NCBI RefSeq assembly: GCF_036227605.1
Contig: NZ_CP109487.1
Span: 2,356,001-2,420,000, forward strand
Source: Streptomyces sp. NBC_01439
GTDB lineage: Bacteria > Actinomycetota > Actinomycetes > Streptomycetales > Streptomycetaceae
Length of the DNA stretch: 64,000 nucleotides
Direction: 5' to 3'
The translations under genes and the position numbers were made by a program. The notes under the pieces were generated by a model. That model was not told the DNA's origin, searched no databases, and was given only the letters and a program-made list of their open reading frames with translations. Of this stretch, positions 40,004 through 50,439 are shown piece after piece (the stretch's first letter is position 1; the number at the start of each line of letters is the position of its first letter).

Positions 40004-40242
40004 AGCCGAGCATATGCGCCGACGGGTCGCCCCACCCGCAGATCAACCGACTGTTCACGCAACGCACTTGACCCGGGCCCGGGGCGTGGGGGCACGGGCA
40101 GCGCACGGGAGCGGAACCGCGCTCCCGCTCACGCCCGGGTGCATCGGAGGGCGTAAAGGGGGTGAAACCCGATCGGGCTTGCGGCGTTAGTGGGGTGGCC
40201 CGCCGTTTCGCCCGCGGCGCAGACGAGAGCACGAGGAGCACG

Positions 40243-41130
40243 ATGACAGACCCGAGGCCGGCCGGACGCGGTCGGATGAAGCTGGCAGCCCGATGCCGGG
40301 TGGCCACGGAGGCCCCCGCCTTCGGGATGGTCGTCTTCTGCGCGATCCTCTTCAACGCCGCGCTGATGGGGGTGGAGACGTACAGCGGTCTCGCCGCGGA
40401 GCACCGGCTCCTACTGCAGGGCGCGGAGAACTGCTGCCTGGCCCTGTTCACCCTGGAGATGCTGCTGCGCGTGGGCGCCTGCGCCGACCGGCCGAAAGCA
40501 TTCTTCCGTGACCCGTGGAACCTCTTCGACCTCGCGGTCGTGGCCTCCGCCTTCGTCCCGCTCGTCCGGGAGAACACCACCCTGCTGCGGCTGCTGCGCC
40601 TGGCCCGGGTCCTGCGCACCGCCCGCTTCCTGCCCCACCTGCGCATCCTGCTGATCGCGGTCGGCCGCAGCCTGCCGGGCACCGCCAGCTTCCTGTTCGT
40701 CGGCGCGCTGGTCCTGTACGTGTACGCCATGGTCGGCTGGGTGTGCTTCGCGAAGTCGGACCCCGGGCACTACGGCTCGGTGGGCCGCGCGATGCTCACG
40801 CTCTTCCTGCTGACCACCCTCGACGGCCTCACGGACGCCGTCCGCGCGGGTCTGCAGATCTCCCGGCTGAGCATCATCTACTACGCCTCCTACGCGCTGC
40901 TCGCCTCCTTCGTGCTGGTGAACGTGCTGATCGGCGTCGTCCTCAACTCGCTGGACGAGGCACGCGAGATGGAGGCCGAGGCGAACCGCGCCCCGGCGCC
41001 GGGCGCGGATCCCGACGTCCGGGCACGGATCGCCACCGCCCGCCGGGCCCTGGACGAGATCGAGGCGAGCCTGCCGGTGGCGACCGACCGGCCGAAACGG
41101 CAGCTGGAGGCCTCGCACACCGGGCCGTGA
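40243..41130 (+). CDS. Voltage-gated-like ion channel, six helices
   Basis: A 295-residue single-domain channel of the bacterial NaV type. S1-S3 lie at about 28-105. S4 is LLRLLRLARVLRTARFLP (residues 114-131), with Arg at every third position. S5 is at about 148-170. The pore helix and filter are LFLLTTLDGLTDAVRAG (187-203), and S6 is IIYYASYALLASFVLVNVLIGVVLNSL. A charged C-terminal helix follows. The TLDGLTD filter differs from the TLESWAS of NaChBac, so ion selectivity is uncertain. ATG 40243 has GAGGAG upstream. It stands alone. Confidence 0.85.
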   Translation: MTDPRPAGRGRMKLAARCRVATEAPAFGMVVFCAILFNAALMGVETYSGLAAEHRLLLQGAENCCLALFTLEMLLRVGACADRPKAFFRDPWNLFDLAVVASAFVPLVRENTTLLRLLRLARVLRTARFLPHLRILLIAVGRSLPGTASFLFVGALVLYVYAMVGWVCFAKSDPGHYGSVGRAMLTLFLLTTLDGLTDAVRAGLQISRLSIIYYASYALLASFVLVNVLIGVVLNSLDEAREMEAEANRAPAPGADPDVRARIATARRALDEIEASLPVATDRPKRQLEASHTGP

Positions 41131-41153: not shown

Positions 41154-44100
41154 CTACGCCTCGGCGTCGAGCAGCCGGACGTCCCACGTACCGTCCGGGC
41201 GCCGGACCGAGGTCCAGCCGTCCGGCGGCGCCACGAACGGGAACTGGCCGACGAGCGAGTCCGCCTCGAAGAGCACGCCGTCGAGGCGGACCCGGCCCCG
41301 GAAGCTCGCCCTCGCGAAGTCCACCGGCGCTTCGAAGACCGCCCTGTTGGACAGCAGCCCGCCCTCCCACTCCGCGGACGCGAAGGAGACCGCCCCGGCG
41401 AAGCCCGCCTCGTTCAGCATGGCAAGGCCGCCGAAGAAGGTGCGGGAGAAGTCCGCGGTCCCCGCCACCCGTACTCCGTTCAGGTCCGCGGACGCCGCCA
41501 GCACGGCCCGGGCGAAGGAGACGTCACCGAGGAACGCCGCATTGTTGAATCCCGCCGAAGCGTGGAAGAGCGCCCGGCGGAACGTGGCGGTGCGGTGGAA
41601 GCGGCACCGGTCGAAGTCACCGACGCGCTCGAAGACCGCGCCGTCGAGGGAGACCGGGCCGGCGAAGGTGACTCCGGCGAAACCGGCCCGGCCCTCGAAG
41701 GAGGCCCGGACGAAGGACGCGCGGTCCCAGAACTCGATGTCCGGCCGGTTCCAGCCGTCCACGAAGCGTGCCCGGTCGAAGTCCGCCGGCCCCAGTGCGG
41801 CGGGCCCCGGAACGCCCGGCTGCAGCGCCATGAGGAGGCGCGGCAGCAGGCCGTGGTCGAAGGTGGTGCCCCGGAGGTCCACCGGCGCTCCAGGGGACAG
41901 CGTTCCGAGGTAGCCCTCCTGGTCCTCGATCTCCAGATGGGCGAGGCAGCGCTCGTGGCCCGGCAGCCGGATGCCGATGCAGGCCCGCGGGTCGGCCGGT
42001 GAGGCCTGGAGCCCACAGGTCGGCCAGCCGACGCCCTCGTCCAGGAGCCCGTCCGCCTCCGTCAGCACCTGCCCGAGCGCACCGGCGGGTGCGTGGTCGT
42101 CGGAACAGACCCAGCCCTCGTCGGCGCCGCCCACCCGGTGCAGCGCGATCCGGGCCGGCGAGCCGAGCACGTCAGCGAGTTCCTCGTACAGACGGTGGGA
42201 GAGCGCGAGGACGAGCGCCCCCGGGCGCACCGTCCGTCCCAACAGGTCCGCGATCGCGGGGTGCCGGACCAGTCGGGTGCTCTCGTCCGTGCCCACGCCC
42301 ACGGCCGCGCCGAGCGGGGGGTGCATGCCGTCCATGCGCCGGAATCCGTACCGGGTCATGGCTCCGGGCAGTTCGAGCAGGAGCCGGCCCGCCTTGGCGT
42401 GGGCGCCCGGCGCGGCGAACGTGACGAGCAGCGGTGCGTCCTCCTCGCCGCCGGTCAGCCGCCCGCTGACGCCGGTGTCCGCCATGAGCTCGGCGAGCAT
42501 CGCGTGCGTCTCCGCCGTCGCCGAACTCCCGGTCGGGACCACGCCGTCGGCACCGGGCAGCACCGCCAGGCACACCCCGGTCTCCGTGTCCCGTGCCCGT
42601 ACGGAACCCTCCAGCGCCGCTCGGAAGCCCTCCTGTTCCATCAGGGCGTCGGTCAGCAGGAACACCAGTCGGTTGGGCGAAACCGTGTGGACGACGCCGA
42701 CCAGCGCGCCGCCCCGGGAGACGGGGCCGCCGCGGTAGTGCGTCCAGCCCTCCGGCTCCGCGGACAGCCGGACGACCTCGCCGTTGAGGTCACCGCCGTG
42801 CGGCAGGACCTCGCCCGTCAGGGAGACCGGGTCCCCCTGGTCCGTGCGGCCGTCGATGCGGACCCGGGCCAGATGGTGGTCCGCGGGCAGCCAGGGCAGC
42901 GGCTCGGCGCCGACCGCCGGATCCGTCAGGTCCTCGTCGGCCTGGAGCAGCAGCATCCGGGGCGCCGCGTCGTCCCACCACACCGCCCGGCAGGGGATCT
43001 CCCGGTCGCCGGGCCGCACCCAGGCCACCGAGCCGGCGGGGGGCACCGCGTCCCCCACCGTGAGGACGAGGCGCGGGGTCAGCAGGGTGCCGACCTCCTG
43101 CGGCTCGGGCATCCCGTCGTGGCGGACCCGTACGACCCGGTCGGCCAGGCCCGGTTCCCGCGGTGGCCGCGCCGCGAACGGCAGGGCCCCTTCGGCCACC
43201 CGGCGCACGCCCTCCCGGCCCGTGGTGACGCGGGTCGCGGAGAAGTCCGGGCCGGTGCGCCGGTTGCGGGACACGAACTCCCACACGCGGCGCCGGACCA
43301 GCTCCCGTATGGCGGCCACCTCCCCGCGCAGCTGCCCGCCGAGCAGCGCCTCCCGTACGCCGGGGAGGAACTCGAACTCCACCTCTGCGGGGTCCTGTTC
43401 GTCCTCCCAGGCTTCGAAGAGCCCGCCGAGGGCGACCTCCGCGAGGTGGCCGTGCTCCGAGTCGCGCAGCAGGGAGCGCCGGACCAGGGTCATCACCGGC
43501 AGGGTGAGCGGTACGGCGGCCAGGTGGGCGGCGAGCTGCTGGGCCGTCGGCGAGGCGCTCGCCCGGAAGTCCTCCACCACCTCCAGGGCGCTGCGGCCGC
43601 CGGGGGCGGGATCGTCCGGGGCGCCCGTGGCGGCGGGTTCCGGGTCCAGTCGCAGGCAGGCGAGGCGCCGCCACCGGCCGTCCCCGGAGACCACCCGCAC
43701 AAGCCGGGCCAGGCTGCCGGAGGCGACACCGACCACGGGGACGACGGCCGGGACCGCGGTGCGGCGGGTTCCGGCGCGGGCGCGGGCGCGGCGGGCGGCC
43801 GGGATCCGCTGCCAGGAGCGGGTGGCGGCGGCCGGCCGGTCGGCGCGGACGGCGAAGGGGACGGGGCGGACGGCGCCGCGCGTCCAGAGCCGTTCGGGCA
43901 GGACGTTCAGTACGGCGACGGCGTTGTGCGCGCACCAGTGCCGGAGCACGTCCTGCACCGGGGCCTCGCGCCAGCCGCCCGCGACGGTGTCGGAGAGTAC
44001 GAGGATCAGCCGGCGGCCCGCCGGGTCGGCCAGTTCCAGGGGGTTGCGGGGCGGGCCGCCGTGGCCGCGGGTGACCATCGGGGTGGCGCCGGGGCCGGTA

Positions 44101-44732
44101 CCGGTCAGCTGCCAGGTGCGCACGTCGCGGAAGACCCCGCTGCGGGTCAGGACGCGGCGGAGCTCGTCCACGTGGTCCGCCCAGAGCAGCATGGAGCGGT
44201 GGGTGTCGACGACGAGGGCCAGGTCCAGCCAGCGGCTCTCGGCGGGGCGCAGGACCGGGGTCGTCACCATCCGCTCGATGCTGCGTTCCACGGTGAGCTG
44301 CTCGTCGAGTTCCTCCCCGGGGCCGCCGATGGAGCGTCTCCCGACGGGCCGCAGCGAGCGCATCAGGGCGAGCGGGTCGTCGAGGGAGGCGGCCCGCGGC
44401 AGCCGCAGGGGTGAGCCCCGGCGCCGGGCGCCGTCGTCGTCCGGTTTCCCGGTGGGGTCGCGCCGGGCGGCCGGGAAGAGCTGGACGGCCGGTTCGCCGC
44501 CGGCGGAGGTGCCGGGCCCGGGTGCCGCTCCGGGCTCGGGCGACGGGTCGGGCGGGGGTGGCGGCTCGCCCGGCGGGTCGGCGCCGGGTGCTGCGGGCGG
44601 GCGTGCCGTGCGGCCCGCGTCGACCCGGGCCGCCAGCCACAGGATGTCGGCGAGCTCCTCCGCCCCGATGCCGGTGCTCGGGGCGCTGCCGTCGGCGCCG
44701 TCGGCGAGGGCCGCGAGCAGCTGCTCGATCAC
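41154..44732 (-). CDS. SAV_2336-type vWA protein with pseudo-trypsin and pentapeptide repeats
   Basis: A 1,192-residue cytoplasmic protein. Residues 1-45 form a helical N-terminal domain (AEELADILWLAARV). Residues 45-115 are a Pro-rich linker. A vWA-like domain begins at about 167 (DLALVVDTHRSMLLW, D176) and runs to about 285. Residues 545-690 look like a trypsin fold, but LTAAHC is replaced by LTVGDA and GxSGG by YRGG, so the triad is lost. A further domain (716-890) weakly resembles nucleotide cyclases. About 1000-1165 are pentapeptide repeats (FDRCRFHRTATFRRALF). GTG 44732 overlaps the MoxR gene stop by 4 bases. It is the last gene of the conflict operon. Confidence 0.85.
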   Translation of the reverse strand: MIEQLLAALADGADGSAPSTGIGAEELADILWLAARVDAGRTARPPAAPGADPPGEPPPPPDPSPEPGAAPGPGTSAGGEPAVQLFPAARRDPTGKPDDDGARRRGSPLRLPRAASLDDPLALMRSLRPVGRRSIGGPGEELDEQLTVERSIERMVTTPVLRPAESRWLDLALVVDTHRSMLLWADHVDELRRVLTRSGVFRDVRTWQLTGTGPGATPMVTRGHGGPPRNPLELADPAGRRLILVLSDTVAGGWREAPVQDVLRHWCAHNAVAVLNVLPERLWTRGAVRPVPFAVRADRPAAATRSWQRIPAARRARARAGTRRTAVPAVVPVVGVASGSLARLVRVVSGDGRWRRLACLRLDPEPAATGAPDDPAPGGRSALEVVEDFRASASPTAQQLAAHLAAVPLTLPVMTLVRRSLLRDSEHGHLAEVALGGLFEAWEDEQDPAEVEFEFLPGVREALLGGQLRGEVAAIRELVRRRVWEFVSRNRRTGPDFSATRVTTGREGVRRVAEGALPFAARPPREPGLADRVVRVRHDGMPEPQEVGTLLTPRLVLTVGDAVPPAGSVAWVRPGDREIPCRAVWWDDAAPRMLLLQADEDLTDPAVGAEPLPWLPADHHLARVRIDGRTDQGDPVSLTGEVLPHGGDLNGEVVRLSAEPEGWTHYRGGPVSRGGALVGVVHTVSPNRLVFLLTDALMEQEGFRAALEGSVRARDTETGVCLAVLPGADGVVPTGSSATAETHAMLAELMADTGVSGRLTGGEEDAPLLVTFAAPGAHAKAGRLLLELPGAMTRYGFRRMDGMHPPLGAAVGVGTDESTRLVRHPAIADLLGRTVRPGALVLALSHRLYEELADVLGSPARIALHRVGGADEGWVCSDDHAPAGALGQVLTEADGLLDEGVGWPTCGLQASPADPRACIGIRLPGHERCLAHLEIEDQEGYLGTLSPGAPVDLRGTTFDHGLLPRLLMALQPGVPGPAALGPADFDRARFVDGWNRPDIEFWDRASFVRASFEGRAGFAGVTFAGPVSLDGAVFERVGDFDRCRFHRTATFRRALFHASAGFNNAAFLGDVSFARAVLAASADLNGVRVAGTADFSRTFFGGLAMLNEAGFAGAVSFASAEWEGGLLSNRAVFEAPVDFARASFRGRVRLDGVLFEADSLVGQFPFVAPPDGWTSVRRPDGTWDVRLLDAEA

Positions 44733-45826
44733 GCCGTGGGCCCGGTCAGGTGCTGCATGACGGTGGCGAGGAAGCGTTCGCGGTCCGCGGGCGCGGACCA
44801 GGCGCCGGCGAGGCGGAGCTGGATGGCGTTGAGGAGCTGGTCGGTGGCCAGGTCGCCGTCCTCGCCGCGGTCGAGGAAGGCCCGGACGAGGTCCTGGTAC
44901 TCCTCGCCGGATGCGATGTCGACGCCGAGCCGGCGGCGCACGATCCGGGCGAGCTTGTCCGGTCCGGGCGGTTGCAGGTGGAGGCGGACGCAGCGGCGCA
45001 GGAAGGCGGGCGGGAAGTCGCGTTCGCCGTTGCTGGTGAGGACGACGACGGGGAAGTAGCGGCACTGGACGCGGCCCTGGGTGATCCGTACGACCGCGTC
45101 GGGGTCGTCGTCGGTGCCGATCGCGACGGTGGGGTCCTCCTGGGCGAGGCGGGCGAGTTCGGGGATCAGGAAGCCGCCGTCCTCGAAGACGGTGAGGAGG
45201 TCGCCGGGGAGGTCGATGTCGCTCTTGTCGATCTCGTCGACGAGCAGCACGCGGGGGCGGTCCTGCGGGAGCAGGGCGGTACCGAGGGGGCCGAGGCGCA
45301 GGTAGCGGGAGATCGAGGGGGCGGACGGGGCGGGGGAGGTGTCCGGCGCGGGCACGGGCGCGGGTACGGCCCCGGCGGGCCGCGCGCCCGGTGTGCGCAG
45401 CTGTTCCAGCCCGGCCTCCTGGAGGCGGCCGATGGCGTCGTACAGGTACAGCCCGTCCCGCAGCACGGTCCGGCTGGTGATCGGCCAGTGCAGTACGGGC
45501 CCCAGGTTCAGGTCGGAGGCGATGCTGTAGGCGAGCGTGGACTTGCCGACGCCCGGTTTCCCGGTGACGAGCAGCGGCCTGCGCAGGTGCAGCGCCGTGT
45601 TGACGACGTCCTTCTCCGGCTCGTCGGGCACGTAGCCCTCGCCGCGCCGCCAGGTCCGCTCCCAGGCCGCTCCCGTGCATCCGGGCGGCGCGTATCCGGG
45701 GTCGGGGGCGCCGGTGAAGTCCCGCCAGGGTGGTGGGAATCCGGCCTCGAGGCGGGCGCGCCGGTCCGCGCCCTCGCCGGTCCCGTGGTACAGCCACCAG
45801 TCCTTCACCACTGCCTCTGCCTCCAT
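44729..45826 (-). CDS. MoxR-type AAA+ ATPase of the conflict operon
   Basis: A 365-residue AAA+ ATPase. Walker A is GKPGVGKST (89-97), Walker B is VLLVDEIDKSD (D197-E198), and sensor 1 is VVLTSNGERDFPPAFLRRC (N266, with the arginine finger pair at 277-278). A Pro/Ala-rich insert (146-170) interrupts the domain. MoxR proteins remodel a vWA partner, which here is encoded by the next gene with a 4-base overlap. The start is ATG 45826, 31 bases after the VMAP gene. It is the NTP-driven switch of the operon. Confidence 0.92.
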   Translation of the reverse strand: MEAEAVVKDWWLYHGTGEGADRRARLEAGFPPPWRDFTGAPDPGYAPPGCTGAAWERTWRRGEGYVPDEPEKDVVNTALHLRRPLLVTGKPGVGKSTLAYSIASDLNLGPVLHWPITSRTVLRDGLYLYDAIGRLQEAGLEQLRTPGARPAGAVPAPVPAPDTSPAPSAPSISRYLRLGPLGTALLPQDRPRVLLVDEIDKSDIDLPGDLLTVFEDGGFLIPELARLAQEDPTVAIGTDDDPDAVVRITQGRVQCRYFPVVVLTSNGERDFPPAFLRRCVRLHLQPPGPDKLARIVRRRLGVDIASGEEYQDLVRAFLDRGEDGDLATDQLLNAIQLRLAGAWSAPADRERFLATVMQHLTGPTA

Positions 45827-45857
45827 CTTCGGTTCCGCCGTCGGTCGGTGGTCGGGG

Positions 45858-47957
45858 TCAGGCCAGGGACCGGAGGCCCGGCATGTCGTCGGGATCGTCC
45901 CACAGGAGCACCAACTGGTCTCCCCCTGCGGATGGTTGGTGGGCGCGTGCGGCTCCCGCGGCGGCACCGGCGGCCGCCCGGCGCACCTCCCGCACGCGTG
46001 CGGGCAGGGCCAGTACGTCCAGTGCGCCGGGATCGGGGCGGCCGTCCGGCCCGGCCGGGGCCAGCAGGTCGAGGAGTGCGGGCGCGGGCCGGCCGCCCCC
46101 GCGCCGCCACACGGCCACTGGGAGCCCGCCTTCGAGCACGGCCTCCAGCAGCCCGGCGTGCGGGGCGGCCGTGGTGTGCGCGAGGACGCAGGCGGGCGGC
46201 GGCTGCGCGGCCAGCTCCATCCCGAGGGCGTCGGTGACCTCCTCGTCCACGACGACCCGTACGGCGTCGGGGTGCCGGCCGCCCTGGGCGTGCAGCCAGC
46301 GCCAGGTGCCGTGCCACTCGGCCCGGGTGTCCGCACGCTCCTGCGGGCAGCGCACCACCACCTGGTGGAGCAGGCCGAGGGCGCGGCGCCGGCCGGCCGG
46401 GCCGCGGGGCACCGGCCACTGGTCGAAGTCGGCGTCGAGCAGCTCGTACGGCACGTGGAACTCGATGCGGTCCACCGCGGCGTACGCCTGCCGTCCGGCC
46501 CCGGTCCCGGCCCCGCTCACGGTCTCGCCGTCGTCCTCGCCGCCGGCCTCCGAGGCGCTTCCGATGAGGGCGAGTTGCCGTACGAGCTGCTCCCGCACCT
46601 CGTCCAGGGCGACCGGCGCCCCCTCCGACTCCCATATGTGCCGGGCCCGTTCGCCCCGCAGCCACATCCGGGCCAGGAATCCGGGCTCCCCGCCCGGCGG
46701 CGCCTCCAGCCGGACGTGCACGACCGTCCTGCGGGCCGGGGGCGGCGGCGGGGGCAGCACCGGCAGGGCGAGGCGCTCGCGGGTGGCCCGCACCCAGTCC
46801 CCGAGGCCGGCCGCCCAGCGCGCGTCGCCCGCGGCGGCGGCCCGGTCCGCGAGGAACCGTACGAAGGGCACCGCCAGCGGCATCCCGCCGCGCCCGCCCT
46901 GCCGCTCGTCCAGGTCCTGGACCACCTCCAGCAGGCCGTCCCCCGGCAGACCTCCGTGCGCCGGGGTGGTGCAGCCGGCCGCCTTGAACGCCCAGGCGTA
47001 GGCCTCGTGGGCGCAGCGCGGCAGCTCGCGGCCCTCGAAGAGCTCGCCGAGCCCGTCCCAGGCCGCCTGGTCGAGCTTGGCGGCCCGGGGCGGTGCGGCC
47101 CGGGCCAGGTCGTCGTCGAGGAAGGAGCAGGCGTCCCAGTCCCGGTCGACGATGAACTGCGGCAGCTGCCAGCCCTCGCCGCGCTCGCGCAGCTCCTGGA
47201 AGGTGCGGTGGATGCTGACGGCGGTGCCGGGCAGTCCGCTGACGCTCTCCCGTACGGACCGTCCGTCGAGTTCGCCGAGCAGGGCCTCGGTGAACCGGCC
47301 GGCGCCGCGTTCGGGGTCGTTCTGTGCGACCTCGCCCTCGCGGGAGGCGTAGAGCCGGAACTGACGCCGGCCCGGTACCGAACTCCCGCCCCCGTAGTCG
47401 GTGTTGCCGAAGTTCCACCGGGTGTCGCGGGGCGCGTCGACCCGGCAGGAGTCCACGAGTGCGGCCTGGAGCGGGAAGCGGCGCGCTTTGACGAGGTCGG
47501 TGCGCCACCAGCGCAGTGCGGAGTCGAGGTTGAGGTGTCTGATCTGGCTGGGGCGGGCGTCGGCGCAGGGCAGCATGAGCTCCTGGCGCGGCCCGAGGTA
47601 GCCGTGTCCGGCCCAGAAGATCCAGAGCAGGTCGCCGTCGCACTGCGGGAGTTCGTCGAGGAGCGCCGATTTCACGTTCTCCTCGGTCGCCGGCCGGTAG
47701 GCCGTGCGCAGGGCGGTCATCGCCGGGGAGTCCGTCCAGTCGAGGTCGCCCGGTTCGTCGATCGGGGAGAGCAGCAGCCGGACGTTGCCGGGGGGCACTT
47801 CGGCGGGTCCGGTCAGCCACCGGGCGAAGCGAAGGGCGTCGCGGGCCGGACCGCGCAGGTTCCAGCGGTGGCTGATGTCGTAGCGCTCGACCCCGGCGAC
47901 GAGCGCGAAGGTGCGCTGCGGTCCGAGTGCCGGGGGCAGGAAGTCGGCGGGAGTCAC
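45858..47957 (-). CDS. VMAP protein with N-terminal caspase-like protease
   Basis: A 699-residue protein. Residues 15-235 are a C14/caspase-type peptidase. FALVAGVERYD opens the fold, WIFWAGHGY carries the catalytic histidine (H118) and ALVDSCRVD the cysteine (C171), both intact. The middle (about 240-405) is helical. Residues 410-690 resemble the C-terminal domain of vWA-MoxR-associated proteins (VVHVRLEAPP to LVLLWDDPDDMPG). By family, this would be the effector held in check by the MoxR/vWA pair. GTG 47957 overlaps the upstream hydrolase stop by 4 bases. Confidence 0.88.
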   Translation of the reverse strand: MTPADFLPPALGPQRTFALVAGVERYDISHRWNLRGPARDALRFARWLTGPAEVPPGNVRLLLSPIDEPGDLDWTDSPAMTALRTAYRPATEENVKSALLDELPQCDGDLLWIFWAGHGYLGPRQELMLPCADARPSQIRHLNLDSALRWWRTDLVKARRFPLQAALVDSCRVDAPRDTRWNFGNTDYGGGSSVPGRRQFRLYASREGEVAQNDPERGAGRFTEALLGELDGRSVRESVSGLPGTAVSIHRTFQELRERGEGWQLPQFIVDRDWDACSFLDDDLARAAPPRAAKLDQAAWDGLGELFEGRELPRCAHEAYAWAFKAAGCTTPAHGGLPGDGLLEVVQDLDERQGGRGGMPLAVPFVRFLADRAAAAGDARWAAGLGDWVRATRERLALPVLPPPPPPARRTVVHVRLEAPPGGEPGFLARMWLRGERARHIWESEGAPVALDEVREQLVRQLALIGSASEAGGEDDGETVSGAGTGAGRQAYAAVDRIEFHVPYELLDADFDQWPVPRGPAGRRRALGLLHQVVVRCPQERADTRAEWHGTWRWLHAQGGRHPDAVRVVVDEEVTDALGMELAAQPPPACVLAHTTAAPHAGLLEAVLEGGLPVAVWRRGGGRPAPALLDLLAPAGPDGRPDPGALDVLALPARVREVRRAAAGAAAGAARAHQPSAGGDQLVLLWDDPDDMPGLRSLA

Positions 47958-49243
47958 CCGATCTCCGCCTCGGTCACCGCCTGTTCGATCCGCTCGTAGA
48001 GGGAGTCCTGTTTCCAGTAGGCGCTGTGGCAGGCCGGGAACGGCTGGCGGCTGCGGACCTCGTGGTCGGTGACGCGCGCGTCCCCGGGGAAGACGGGTGC
48101 GGCGAGGTAGGCGAGCACGTCGTGCCGGTCGTAGACGTTGAGCCAGCGCGGGAAGCCGTAGGGGAGCTTCGCGCCGGGTTCGAGTGCGGTGAGCGCGCCC
48201 AGTTCGTAGAGGAACGGGGCCTGGGAGCCGACGGTGACCAGCAGCTCGGCCCCGGGGACGGCCTCGCCGCGGGCGGCGGCGAGGGTGAGCAGGTCCACCA
48301 GGGCGATCCCGCCGAGGCTGTGGCCGATGAGTACGGTCGGCCCCGGGTCGGCGGTGATCCGGGCGTGCAGGAAGTCCCGCAGCTCGTGGCCGCGGGACTG
48401 GTAGCGCAGGATGTCGCCGAGGACGGGGGTGGCGCCGACGGTGAGGGAGCCGCGCCGGGCGTCGAGGAGGGGCTGGGTGGTGAGTCGCAGGGCGAGCCGG
48501 CCGAGGACGGCGGCCGCGCGGGCACCGGGAACCCGGCCGTCGCCGCCGAGGCGGGTGGTGAGCAGCTCGACGAGGCGGTCGCGTTCGGCGCCGGTGCAGT
48601 CGGCCTCGTCGGTGGCGGCGGCGAGGGCGGCGGCGGTCACGGCCCGGGCGAGGGCGGTGGCCAGCTCGCGGGCCTGCGGCTCGTCGGCGGCGCGGGCCGC
48701 GGCCCGGGCCGCTTCGGCGGAACCGGCGGTGGCGTCCAGGGCGGCGGCGAAGCCCGCGGCGAGGCCGGTGCCGCGCAGCAGGGCGCCGAGCTCGTCCCCG
48801 GTCGGGGGCGGTGCGGGCGGTAAGCCGTCGAGCAGGGCGAGCACCCGGGCTCCGGGAGCCCGTACGCCGGGCATCGCGAAGGCGTCGCCGTACCCGGCGT
48901 CCTCGTCGTACCCCGCGCCCTCGTCGTCGATGTCACCCCGGTCGTCGGGGCCCGCCCAGCCCGCCTCGGCCAGGACGCGCAGCTCGCACAGCGGGTCGGC
49001 GAGCAGCAGCGCCCACTCGGCGGTCTCCGCGTCCGCGGGGTCGGGTGCGCCCTGCGGACCTGGGGGCAGTCCCGGCACCGAAGCGCCGCCCGCACCGAGG
49101 GTCGCGCCGAACCGGTCTCCCCAGTAGCAGGATTCGACTGCCGCTCCGGGGAATCTGGCGGTCAGCCGCTCCCGTACCTGGGCGAACAGCCTGTCGTGGC
49201 GCTCGCGCCGCACCCCCGTACCGTGGACAAAGAGAAAACGCAT
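47954..49243 (-). CDS. Alpha/beta hydrolase, first gene of the conflict operon
   Basis: A 429-residue protein. It starts RFLFVHGTGVRRERHDRLF, the oxyanion HG motif, and has the nucleophile elbow TVLIGHSLGGIAL in the C-terminal half (serine at about 313). A histidine in the last 25 residues (FPACHSAYWK) and aspartates in VYDRHD complete a possible triad. The long insert between (about 75-240) is Ala/acid-rich and helical. It could be a lipase or esterase effector. Codon 141 is TTA (48821-48823), so the whole operon may depend on bldA. The start is ATG 49243. Confidence 0.85.
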   Translation of the reverse strand: MRFLFVHGTGVRRERHDRLFAQVRERLTARFPGAAVESCYWGDRFGATLGAGGASVPGLPPGPQGAPDPADAETAEWALLLADPLCELRVLAEAGWAGPDDRGDIDDEGAGYDEDAGYGDAFAMPGVRAPGARVLALLDGLPPAPPPTGDELGALLRGTGLAAGFAAALDATAGSAEAARAAARAADEPQARELATALARAVTAAALAAATDEADCTGAERDRLVELLTTRLGGDGRVPGARAAAVLGRLALRLTTQPLLDARRGSLTVGATPVLGDILRYQSRGHELRDFLHARITADPGPTVLIGHSLGGIALVDLLTLAAARGEAVPGAELLVTVGSQAPFLYELGALTALEPGAKLPYGFPRWLNVYDRHDVLAYLAAPVFPGDARVTDHEVRSRQPFPACHSAYWKQDSLYERIEQAVTEAEIG

Positions 49244-49470: not shown

Positions 49471-50439
49471 ATGGTCGGCAAGGTTGACGAGCGGGAACGG
49501 AAGCGGGGCCGGGCCGCCCCGCGGGGCTCCGTGGTCGTCGGCCTCCTGTGCACCGTGGTCCTCGCGGGCGTCGGCTACGTCGCCTGGGAGCTGCGCGGCA
49601 TCACCGCGAACCGCGCGGACGGCGATGCGCCGCAAGGCGTCTACCAGCAGGACCCCGAACGCGCCGACAAGACGGCGGCCTCGGTGTTGGACGGGATCGT
49701 GCGGGAGGCGACGGAGGCGCCGACGGACGGCAAGGCCTTCGGCGAGGGCGGCGGCGGGGCGGACTGGCGCTACGCCGGGTGGCAGCCCTCCGATCCCCTG
49801 GAGGCCCGGCCCTCCCCGGCCGAACCCGCCGTGGGCGCGCTCTTCTCCCCCGGCGGCGACGGCGACCCCGACCACCACTGCTCGGCCGTCGTGGTCCACT
49901 CCCCGCGGGGCGACCTCATCGCCACCGCCGCGCACTGCGTGTACGGCGGCGGCTTCCGCACCAACCTCGCCTTCGCGCCCGGCTACCGGGACGGCGTGGC
50001 CCCGTACGGCATCTGGGTGCCGACCCGGATCGACGTGGACCCGCGGTGGACGCAGGACCAGGACCCCGACCACGACGTCGCCTTGGTCCGGCTGCGCCGG
50101 CCCGGCTATCCGGGGCAGCGGTTGGAGGACGTCACGGGGGCCCTGACCATGGATTTCGGGACCGAACTACCGGCGCCCGCGCGGCTCATGGGCTACCCGA
50201 ACTACGCCGAGCAGCCGCTGGAGTGCCGGAACACCGCCGTCCTGGCCGGGCCGACGCAGGTGCGCCTGGACTGCGCGGACGTGCCCAACGGCACCAGCGG
50301 CGGCCCGGTGACGACCGGCCGCAGCACCCTGATCGGGGTGATCGGCGGCCGGGACGGCGGCGGGGACGAGGAGACCTCGTACAGCGTCCGCTTCGGCGAC
50401 GGCGTCCGTGCCCTGTACGAGCGTTCCACCACGTCCTGA
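49471..50439 (+). CDS. Membrane-anchored or secreted trypsin-like serine protease
   Basis: A 322-residue protease. A single N-terminal membrane segment (VVVGLLCTVVLAGVGYVAW, 21-39) is followed by a spacer, then the chymotrypsin fold. The triad is intact: IATAAHCVYG (H155), HDVALVRL (D202) and PNGTSGGPV (S276). Cysteines at 137/156 and 252/268 can form two disulfides. It is divergent from the conflict operon with a 227-base gap. It may be unrelated, but trypsin domains recur in such systems. ATG 49471 has GGGAG upstream. Confidence 0.9.
   Translation: MVGKVDERERKRGRAAPRGSVVVGLLCTVVLAGVGYVAWELRGITANRADGDAPQGVYQQDPERADKTAASVLDGIVREATEAPTDGKAFGEGGGGADWRYAGWQPSDPLEARPSPAEPAVGALFSPGGDGDPDHHCSAVVVHSPRGDLIATAAHCVYGGGFRTNLAFAPGYRDGVAPYGIWVPTRIDVDPRWTQDQDPDHDVALVRLRRPGYPGQRLEDVTGALTMDFGTELPAPARLMGYPNYAEQPLECRNTAVLAGPTQVRLDCADVPNGTSGGPVTTGRSTLIGVIGGRDGGGDEETSYSVRFGDGVRALYERSTTS

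Follow-up and report, generated by a model that had tools for sequence, protein, structure and literature searches.

A vWA-MoxR-VMAP ternary conflict system of the caspase/alpha-beta-hydrolase subtype in Streptomyces sp. NBC_01439, with a possible division into sensor, switch and output

What kind of system is encoded by four consecutive minus-strand genes of Streptomyces sp. NBC_01439, and which of its parts would sense, switch and act? The genes, named A, B, C and D, form an operon spanning 41154..49243 of a 64,000-nt stretch of contig NZ_CP109487.1, called the window; coordinates and residue numbers refer to this window and to its proteins A-D. The original prediction for this DNA described four same-strand genes with tight junctions, and the junctions are indeed 4-bp overlaps for A-B and C-D and 31 bp for B-C:

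47954..49243, minus strand: gene A, predicted alpha/beta hydrolase (429 aa, ATG start; GHSLGG nucleophile elbow with S309, D372, H406)
45858..47957, minus strand: gene B, caspase-VMAP (699 aa, GTG start; 4-bp overlap with the stop of A)
44729..45826, minus strand: gene C, MoxR-type AAA+ ATPase (365 aa, ATG start; starts 31 bp after B)
41154..44732, minus strand: gene D, vWA component (1192 aa, GTG start; 4-bp overlap with the stop of C)

The vWA-MoxR-VMAP ternary systems were described computationally in 2020 (Kaur et al., PMC7159879; this and the other papers are cited from excerpts). Their markers are the VMAP-C domain, the order VMAP-MoxR-vWA, two N-terminal MoxR motifs and variable domains in the vWA protein, and a VMAP carrying a caspase always has an adjoining alpha/beta-hydrolase gene. 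The window operon presents a VMAP-C domain, this order on one strand, both MoxR motifs, candidate aspartates of the metal-ion-dependent adhesion site (MIDAS), the hydrolase neighbour and variable D tails. We classify it, with near certainty, as a vWA-MoxR-VMAP ternary conflict system of the caspase/alpha-beta-hydrolase subtype, from which, as presented in the excerpts, no defining difference was found. The class proposed in the original prediction is thus upheld. On the other hand, the arrangement is not distinctive, as had been claimed, since the hydrolase gene and the pentapeptide tail are both in print for the class in PMC7159879; the operon type is widespread, and this is a further case of the class described in 2020. 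The excerpts of that paper make no mention of the conserved 4-bp hydrolase-caspase overlap, of divergence by segment or of single genomes in which hydrolase and caspase have been lost or moved together. In addition, vWA-MoxR-VMAP genes are reported near type III CRISPR loci (PMC10910872), and alpha/beta-hydrolases, as membrane-lipid hydrolysing domains, are among the domains fused to bacterial death-like domains (PMC8195603); both observations fit a conflict role. No experimental test of any VMAP system was found in the open-access literature searched.

Gene B has three parts:

47127..47957, minus strand: caspase domain, residues 1-277, para/metacaspase-like, with H118 and C171
46683..47087, minus strand: all-helical middle region, residues 291-425, at the VMAP-M position, from the structure model
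45891..46679, minus strand: VMAP-C domain, residues 427-689, PF20028

The VMAP-like C-terminus read earlier from the sequence is matched by PF20028 over residues 427-689 (E 2.4e-31; 109.8 bits against a cut-off of 27), and the middle region is modelled as helices 297-307, 316-326, 342-351, 362-375 and 379-396. The caspase dyad, H118 and C171, had been numbered correctly, and both residues are invariant in 121/121 rows. Here and below, the aligned rows are the query and 120 listed of 136, 526 and 140 matches, 121 rows in all; the 120 listed for A and for D each include the window's own protein once more. D169, two residues before the catalytic Cys, is also invariant, as is D40. The caspase region matches the PADLOC caspase profile (1.3e-13), and the Pfam caspase model PF00656 is not among the matches of B at E <= 1. 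An EACC1-associated caspase was considered and rejected, with only 36.1 bits against a cut-off of 140 for the NCBIfam model caspase_w_EACC1 (NF047832; E 4.7e-9).

In a VIA fold search, the best matches of residues 1-277 were MALT1 and plant metacaspase 9, ranked above caspases by 1-2 Z, with rows mostly spanning 1-277. Foldseek placed a metacaspase first and insect caspase-1 second, so the fold ranking is not unanimous. The likeness to these para/metacaspases is one of fold, at about 14-20% identity in the listed alignments, and they differ from B in that its caspase is fused to VMAP-M and VMAP-C. MALT1 has a D-x-C-R arrangement like that of B around D169 and the catalytic Cys. As judged from modelled fold, His-Cys dyad and PADLOC match, the N-terminus of B is a member of the C14 caspase superfamily. 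From the fold ranking and the invariant D169 and D40, it is predicted to cleave after Arg or Lys.

Gene A encodes the presumed alpha/beta hydrolase of the original prediction. This naming is backed by the GHSLGG elbow and by S309, D372 and H406, invariant in 121/121 rows, but not by a Pfam family, the best being Ser_hydrolase below its cut-off (E 0.058); no PDB sequence relative was found at E <= 1. A is therefore filed as an alpha/beta hydrolase on its elbow and triad. Gene C encodes the predicted MoxR AAA+ ATPase, with AAA_5 over the Pfam cut-off (2.7e-6). Its N-terminal WWLYHG and PPWRDF, read from the translation, satisfy the motifs WxhapG and PsWRxa of the VMAP-system MoxR. A MadB-type ATPase was rejected, as the best-named NCBIfam match, NF047784, reaches only 63.4 bits against a cut-off of 475. 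For B, C and D, PDB sequence matches occurred only at E > 0.01, these being designed or unrelated proteins for B, some AAA-type ATPases among others for C, and one unrelated protein for D.

Gene D carries a vWA core and a long tail:

43284..44663, minus strand: SAV_2336-type core with vWA domain, residues 24-483, NF041121 (E 5.9e-111, over cut-off)
42597..43187, minus strand: HtrA/trypsin-fold domain, residues 516-712, without the catalytic Ser; R667 at the Ser position, D561 at the His position
42048..42587, minus strand: fast-changing alpha/beta domain, residues 716-895, from model secondary structure
41937..42017, minus strand: Cys3-His cluster of C906, C918, C929 and H932, each invariant in 121/121 rows
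41238..41801, minus strand: pentapeptide-repeat stretch, about residues 978-1165, PF13576

The vWA protein with pentapeptide repeats had been recognized before, and both ends match their models (SAV_2336_NTERM as listed; Pentapeptide_3, E 1.6e-18, modelled as repeated short strands mostly with a pLDDT, the predicted local distance difference test, above 90). The three parts between them, the Ser-less HtrA fold, the alpha/beta domain and the Cys3-His cluster, had all been missed. D176, S180 and D248 are each invariant in the 116/121 rows covering them. D176 and D248 would be the two MIDAS aspartates, which we assign to strands 1 and 4 of a low-confidence core model. The vWA extension motif [D/E]xxx[D/E]xxxa is present as E25xxxD29, with the aromatic W32 one residue early. 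Residues 516-712 were rejected as an active trypsin/HtrA protease, with R667 at the catalytic Ser position and that Ser missing in 121/121 rows. For residues 716-895, a class III nucleotide cyclase was considered, prompted by published architectures and by the helix/strand order of the structure model, which is the sole resemblance; a comparison by hhalign with 16 cyclase domains taken from same-order genomes yielded no match. The Cys3-His cluster is likely a metal site.

Recurrence of the gene order was examined in 55 loci from named genomes, which were found with caspase-region patterns and are thus biased to caspase types. In L002-L036 (35 loci) B is of the VMAP type, and L037-L056 (20 loci) match mainly the caspase part. 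The four genes, for which the original prediction had named conserved order as a check, occur in order in 32/35 of the VMAP-type loci; the exceptions are L013, whose contig ends before D, L017, with a MoxR fragment and no D, and L033, with no hydrolase and no MoxR.

The hydrolase adjoins the caspase gene in 53/55 loci (all except L033 and L056), including 19/20 of L037-L056. Of the 53 loci having both genes, all but L011, L036 and L054 (50/53) offer a candidate in-frame caspase start codon that would give a 4-bp overlap with the hydrolase stop. The possible overlap extends to cyanobacteria and to non-VMAP caspases, against only 25/42 for the MoxR-vWA junction. Among 150 same-genus genomes, the own one included, B was matched in 32 (E <= 1e-10) and A in 32. 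By hand count, the caspase part is covered in 31 of the B matches, with A adjacent to 29 of them (the misses are in G120 and G006). Hydrolase is adjacent in 0/3 VMAP matches without caspase, one further row being the second half of the same protein. In 60 SAV_2336 loci, picked by us among the matches listed and with the known caspase ones included on purpose, a hydrolase is present in 8/8 caspase types, 0/28 trypsin types and 1/24 others. On the vWA-core tree, 4 changes account for the caspase label; across 200 random pairings, the hydrolase tracked the caspase in a mean of 3.9/4 independent contrasts, never in the opposite direction.

Some loci depart from this arrangement. L113 (G058:C1:6968894-6975394), inside the caspase clade, has a VMAP without caspase domain and no hydrolase gene; an upstream reading frame there encodes a hydrophobic, membrane-like stretch. 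In G012 (L125), hydrolase and caspase-VMAP are at C1 8650386-8653423 and MoxR/vWA at 7008145-7014645, about 1.6 Mb apart; the caspase-VMAP match ends at residue 602 of 699, and its MoxR/vWA group with the operon's clade. This is either a split operon or an assembly fault. In Streptomyces sp. DI166, the caspase-VMAP of L033:8983-14133 is followed directly, with no MoxR between, by a vWA protein whose tail is of the GntR type, and a gene product GntR-like by eye occupies the expected hydrolase place. L032, on another contig of this strain, has hydrolase, caspase-VMAP, MoxR and a vWA gene with an early frame end. L037-L055 are hydrolase-caspase pairs of Streptomyces and cyanobacteria, the caspase matching B mainly over the caspase part, and several of these Streptomyces have, a few kb upstream, a MoxR-vWA pair whose tail is of another kind.

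The window proteins were compared by segment with L002-L011, by identity, nonsynonymous and synonymous divergence (dN, dS) and their ratio (omega). Residues 716-895 of D are 36-92% identical (dN 0.04-0.70, omega 0.31-0.98), and omega is 0.23-0.87 for D 986-1192. The vWA core, 104-500, is 85-97% identical (dN 0.02-0.09, omega 0.18-0.33) and VMAP-M 77-96% (dN 0.02-0.14, omega 0.15-0.58); omega is 0.17-0.29 for the caspase region, 0.14-0.30 for MoxR and 0.22-0.35 for the hydrolase. Between L002 and the window, identity is 93% in the vWA core, 52% in the pentapeptides and 89-97% in those flanking genes that were found in L002; the pentapeptides of L002 are 82% identical to those of L006. A grouping of the own sequence with L002 and L003 is allowed by the core tree (p 0.42) but rejected by the pentapeptide tree (p 0.0004). 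Given these trees and the contrast between core and pentapeptides, allele replacement is likely, though not proven.

The kinds of tail were scanned in 20/44 located tails, leaving out L032 (early frame end), L036 (resembling L025), the close relatives L002, L004-L011, L015 and L016, and the distant L038-L052. Eight were pentapeptide tails (one with HAD), two TPR, two Mrr plus propeller, four TIR (one match below the family's cut-off), two GntR and two cold-shock. The non-pentapeptide tails of L030 and L031 also match trypsin, and one of the two also caspase. More distant systems have a tail of a wholly other kind.

From these comparisons we propose, at a little short of an even chance for the whole, that the tail senses, MoxR and vWA switch, and caspase and hydrolase act. 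At rest, the VMAP (B), the MoxR ring (C) and the vWA core of D would sit in an inactive assembly. The exchangeable D tail, with its Ser-less HtrA fold, alpha/beta domain, Cys3-His cluster and pentapeptide rod, would serve as sensor or bait for an invader or stress product. Upon binding at the tail, MoxR would remodel the VMAP by ATP hydrolysis through the vWA core and release the para/metacaspase-like protease, cutting after Arg or Lys. Hydrolase A, coproduced with the caspase through the 4-bp start/stop overlap, would join it as output, in the simplest form as a caspase-activated or caspase-bound lipase-like enzyme. The outcome would be growth arrest or cell death before infection spreads along the hypha.

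An output of caspase and hydrolase is favoured because A and B keep their catalytic residues while the tail has lost its one testable active site. The tail is favoured as sensor because VMAP-M, the sensor in the model of PMC7159879 as excerpted, is far less variable, and because the D tail of the operon is without a recognised active enzyme. The original prediction's assignment of caspase and hydrolase to the output and of MoxR and vWA to the switch would therefore be somewhat better supported than the published alternative. The DGR-diversified VMAP systems of PMC10907252 (DGR, diversity-generating retroelement) have the same proposed roles, in which the vWA protein senses and the N-terminal domain of VMAP is the output; the domains that the retroelement diversifies there are C-type lectins, none of which is among the Pfam results for D.

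Several observations weigh against this division of roles. The Pro-rich linker of D, 41-103, is as divergent as the tail (omega 0.29-0.81 at 45-90% identity), and for the first 40 residues omega goes up to 1.02 and is once undefined, so that fast change alone is no mark of a sensor. In the comparison with the very close L003, omega is 0.23-0.42 for four tail segments and 0.33 for the core; the tail shows no excess there, which leaves ongoing positive selection unsupported. In the other comparisons, dS is raised where tail omega is high, and the cause may be replaced alleles or a relaxed constraint. The formal tree discordance is borderline, as L002 with L006 is disfavoured only weakly by the core tree (p 0.074). 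With no more than 4 independent contrasts (p 0.125), significance is out of reach for the tree test of the hydrolase following the caspase. In addition, the tails of some relatives look enzymatic (Mrr nuclease, TIR, HAD, caspase) and fit a tail acting as effector, which keeps the model of PMC7159879 alive.

In that model (Kaur et al. 2020), the variable VMAP-M is the sensor of the invader, MoxR-vWA serves as switch, and cutting of the vWA protein by the caspase frees its C-terminal effectors, which in this operon would be decoy-like dead enzymes and a pentapeptide scaffold. It is stated for this very class, the excerpts give inactive trypsins and pentapeptides as vWA effectors, and the enzyme-like tails of relatives agree with it. 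A caspase with Arg at P1 could also cut D at position 113, in a disordered linker, which is Arg in 40/42 caspase-type rows (own row included, two of the 42 repeating others) against 0/28 trypsin types and 3/24 others. However, in the operon's clade the D tail has diverged far more than VMAP-M; L113 keeps Arg at 113 despite the loss of caspase and hydrolase; L115 and L121, of a second caspase lineage, have Gly at 113 and Arg two residues on; and 40/42 caspase-type rows belong to one clade, so that Arg113 may simply be inherited. Arg113 was thus rejected as cut site and is kept as a weak lead only. On balance the model is rather unlikely for this operon.

A bolder form of the sensing-tail proposal is doubtful. 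Here hydrolase and caspase would be an obligate, portable two-gene killing cassette in which the Arg/Lys caspase activates the lipase-like A, the dead protease and pentapeptides a swappable bait, and the MoxR-vWA core a general adaptor; the 4-bp overlap would keep the pair in step across phyla and in VMAP and non-VMAP systems.

A purely developmental or stress role (mycelial cell death, sporulation), in which the operon would be a MoxR-vWA module for chaperoning and regulated proteolysis without anti-phage function, is improbable. The locus looks long resident, an ion-channel gene lying near it in 10/11 of L002-L012 and a trypsin gene too in 8/11. SAV_2336-type proteins are very widespread in the genus (104/121 genomes), and MoxR-vWA pairs elsewhere are maturation chaperones (PMC7159879). 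On the other hand, the caspase type is patchy, as the survey of 150 genomes showed, and the tails vary strongly and differ in kind among relatives, which does not suit a housekeeping chaperone. A decayed or non-expressed remnant is very improbable: consensus promoter and terminator scans, poorly suited to and uninformative in Streptomyces, found no site at the operon, but the four frames are intact with tight junctions, the catalytic residues invariant and omega of A, B and C well below 1.

Filamentous bacteria commonly carry VMAP systems. In this operon, the fast-changing tail with a dead protease domain, together with the tightly coupled protease-hydrolase pair, makes the proposed mechanism easier to probe. 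If the proposal of a sensing tail and an enzymatic output is true, C171 and S309 as single-residue switches and a removable D tail would separate two competing published models. The hydrolase-caspase pair would be a small unit to reconstitute, and bacterial para/metacaspases would be linked to lipid or ester hydrolysis in infection-triggered death.

In the window, the operon is flanked by an ion-channel-like gene (40162-41130, plus strand) and a trypsin-like protease gene (49471-50439, plus strand). The same genome holds a second VMAP system (G000:C1:3534404-3537815; L058, L059), which shares VMAP-C and a SAV_2336-type vWA with the operon, the vWA cores being 34% identical over 541 columns. 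It differs in that its vWA fragment (L059) has a TPR-S match below cut-off and its VMAP opens with a trypsin-like domain in which the His and Ser motifs are kept.

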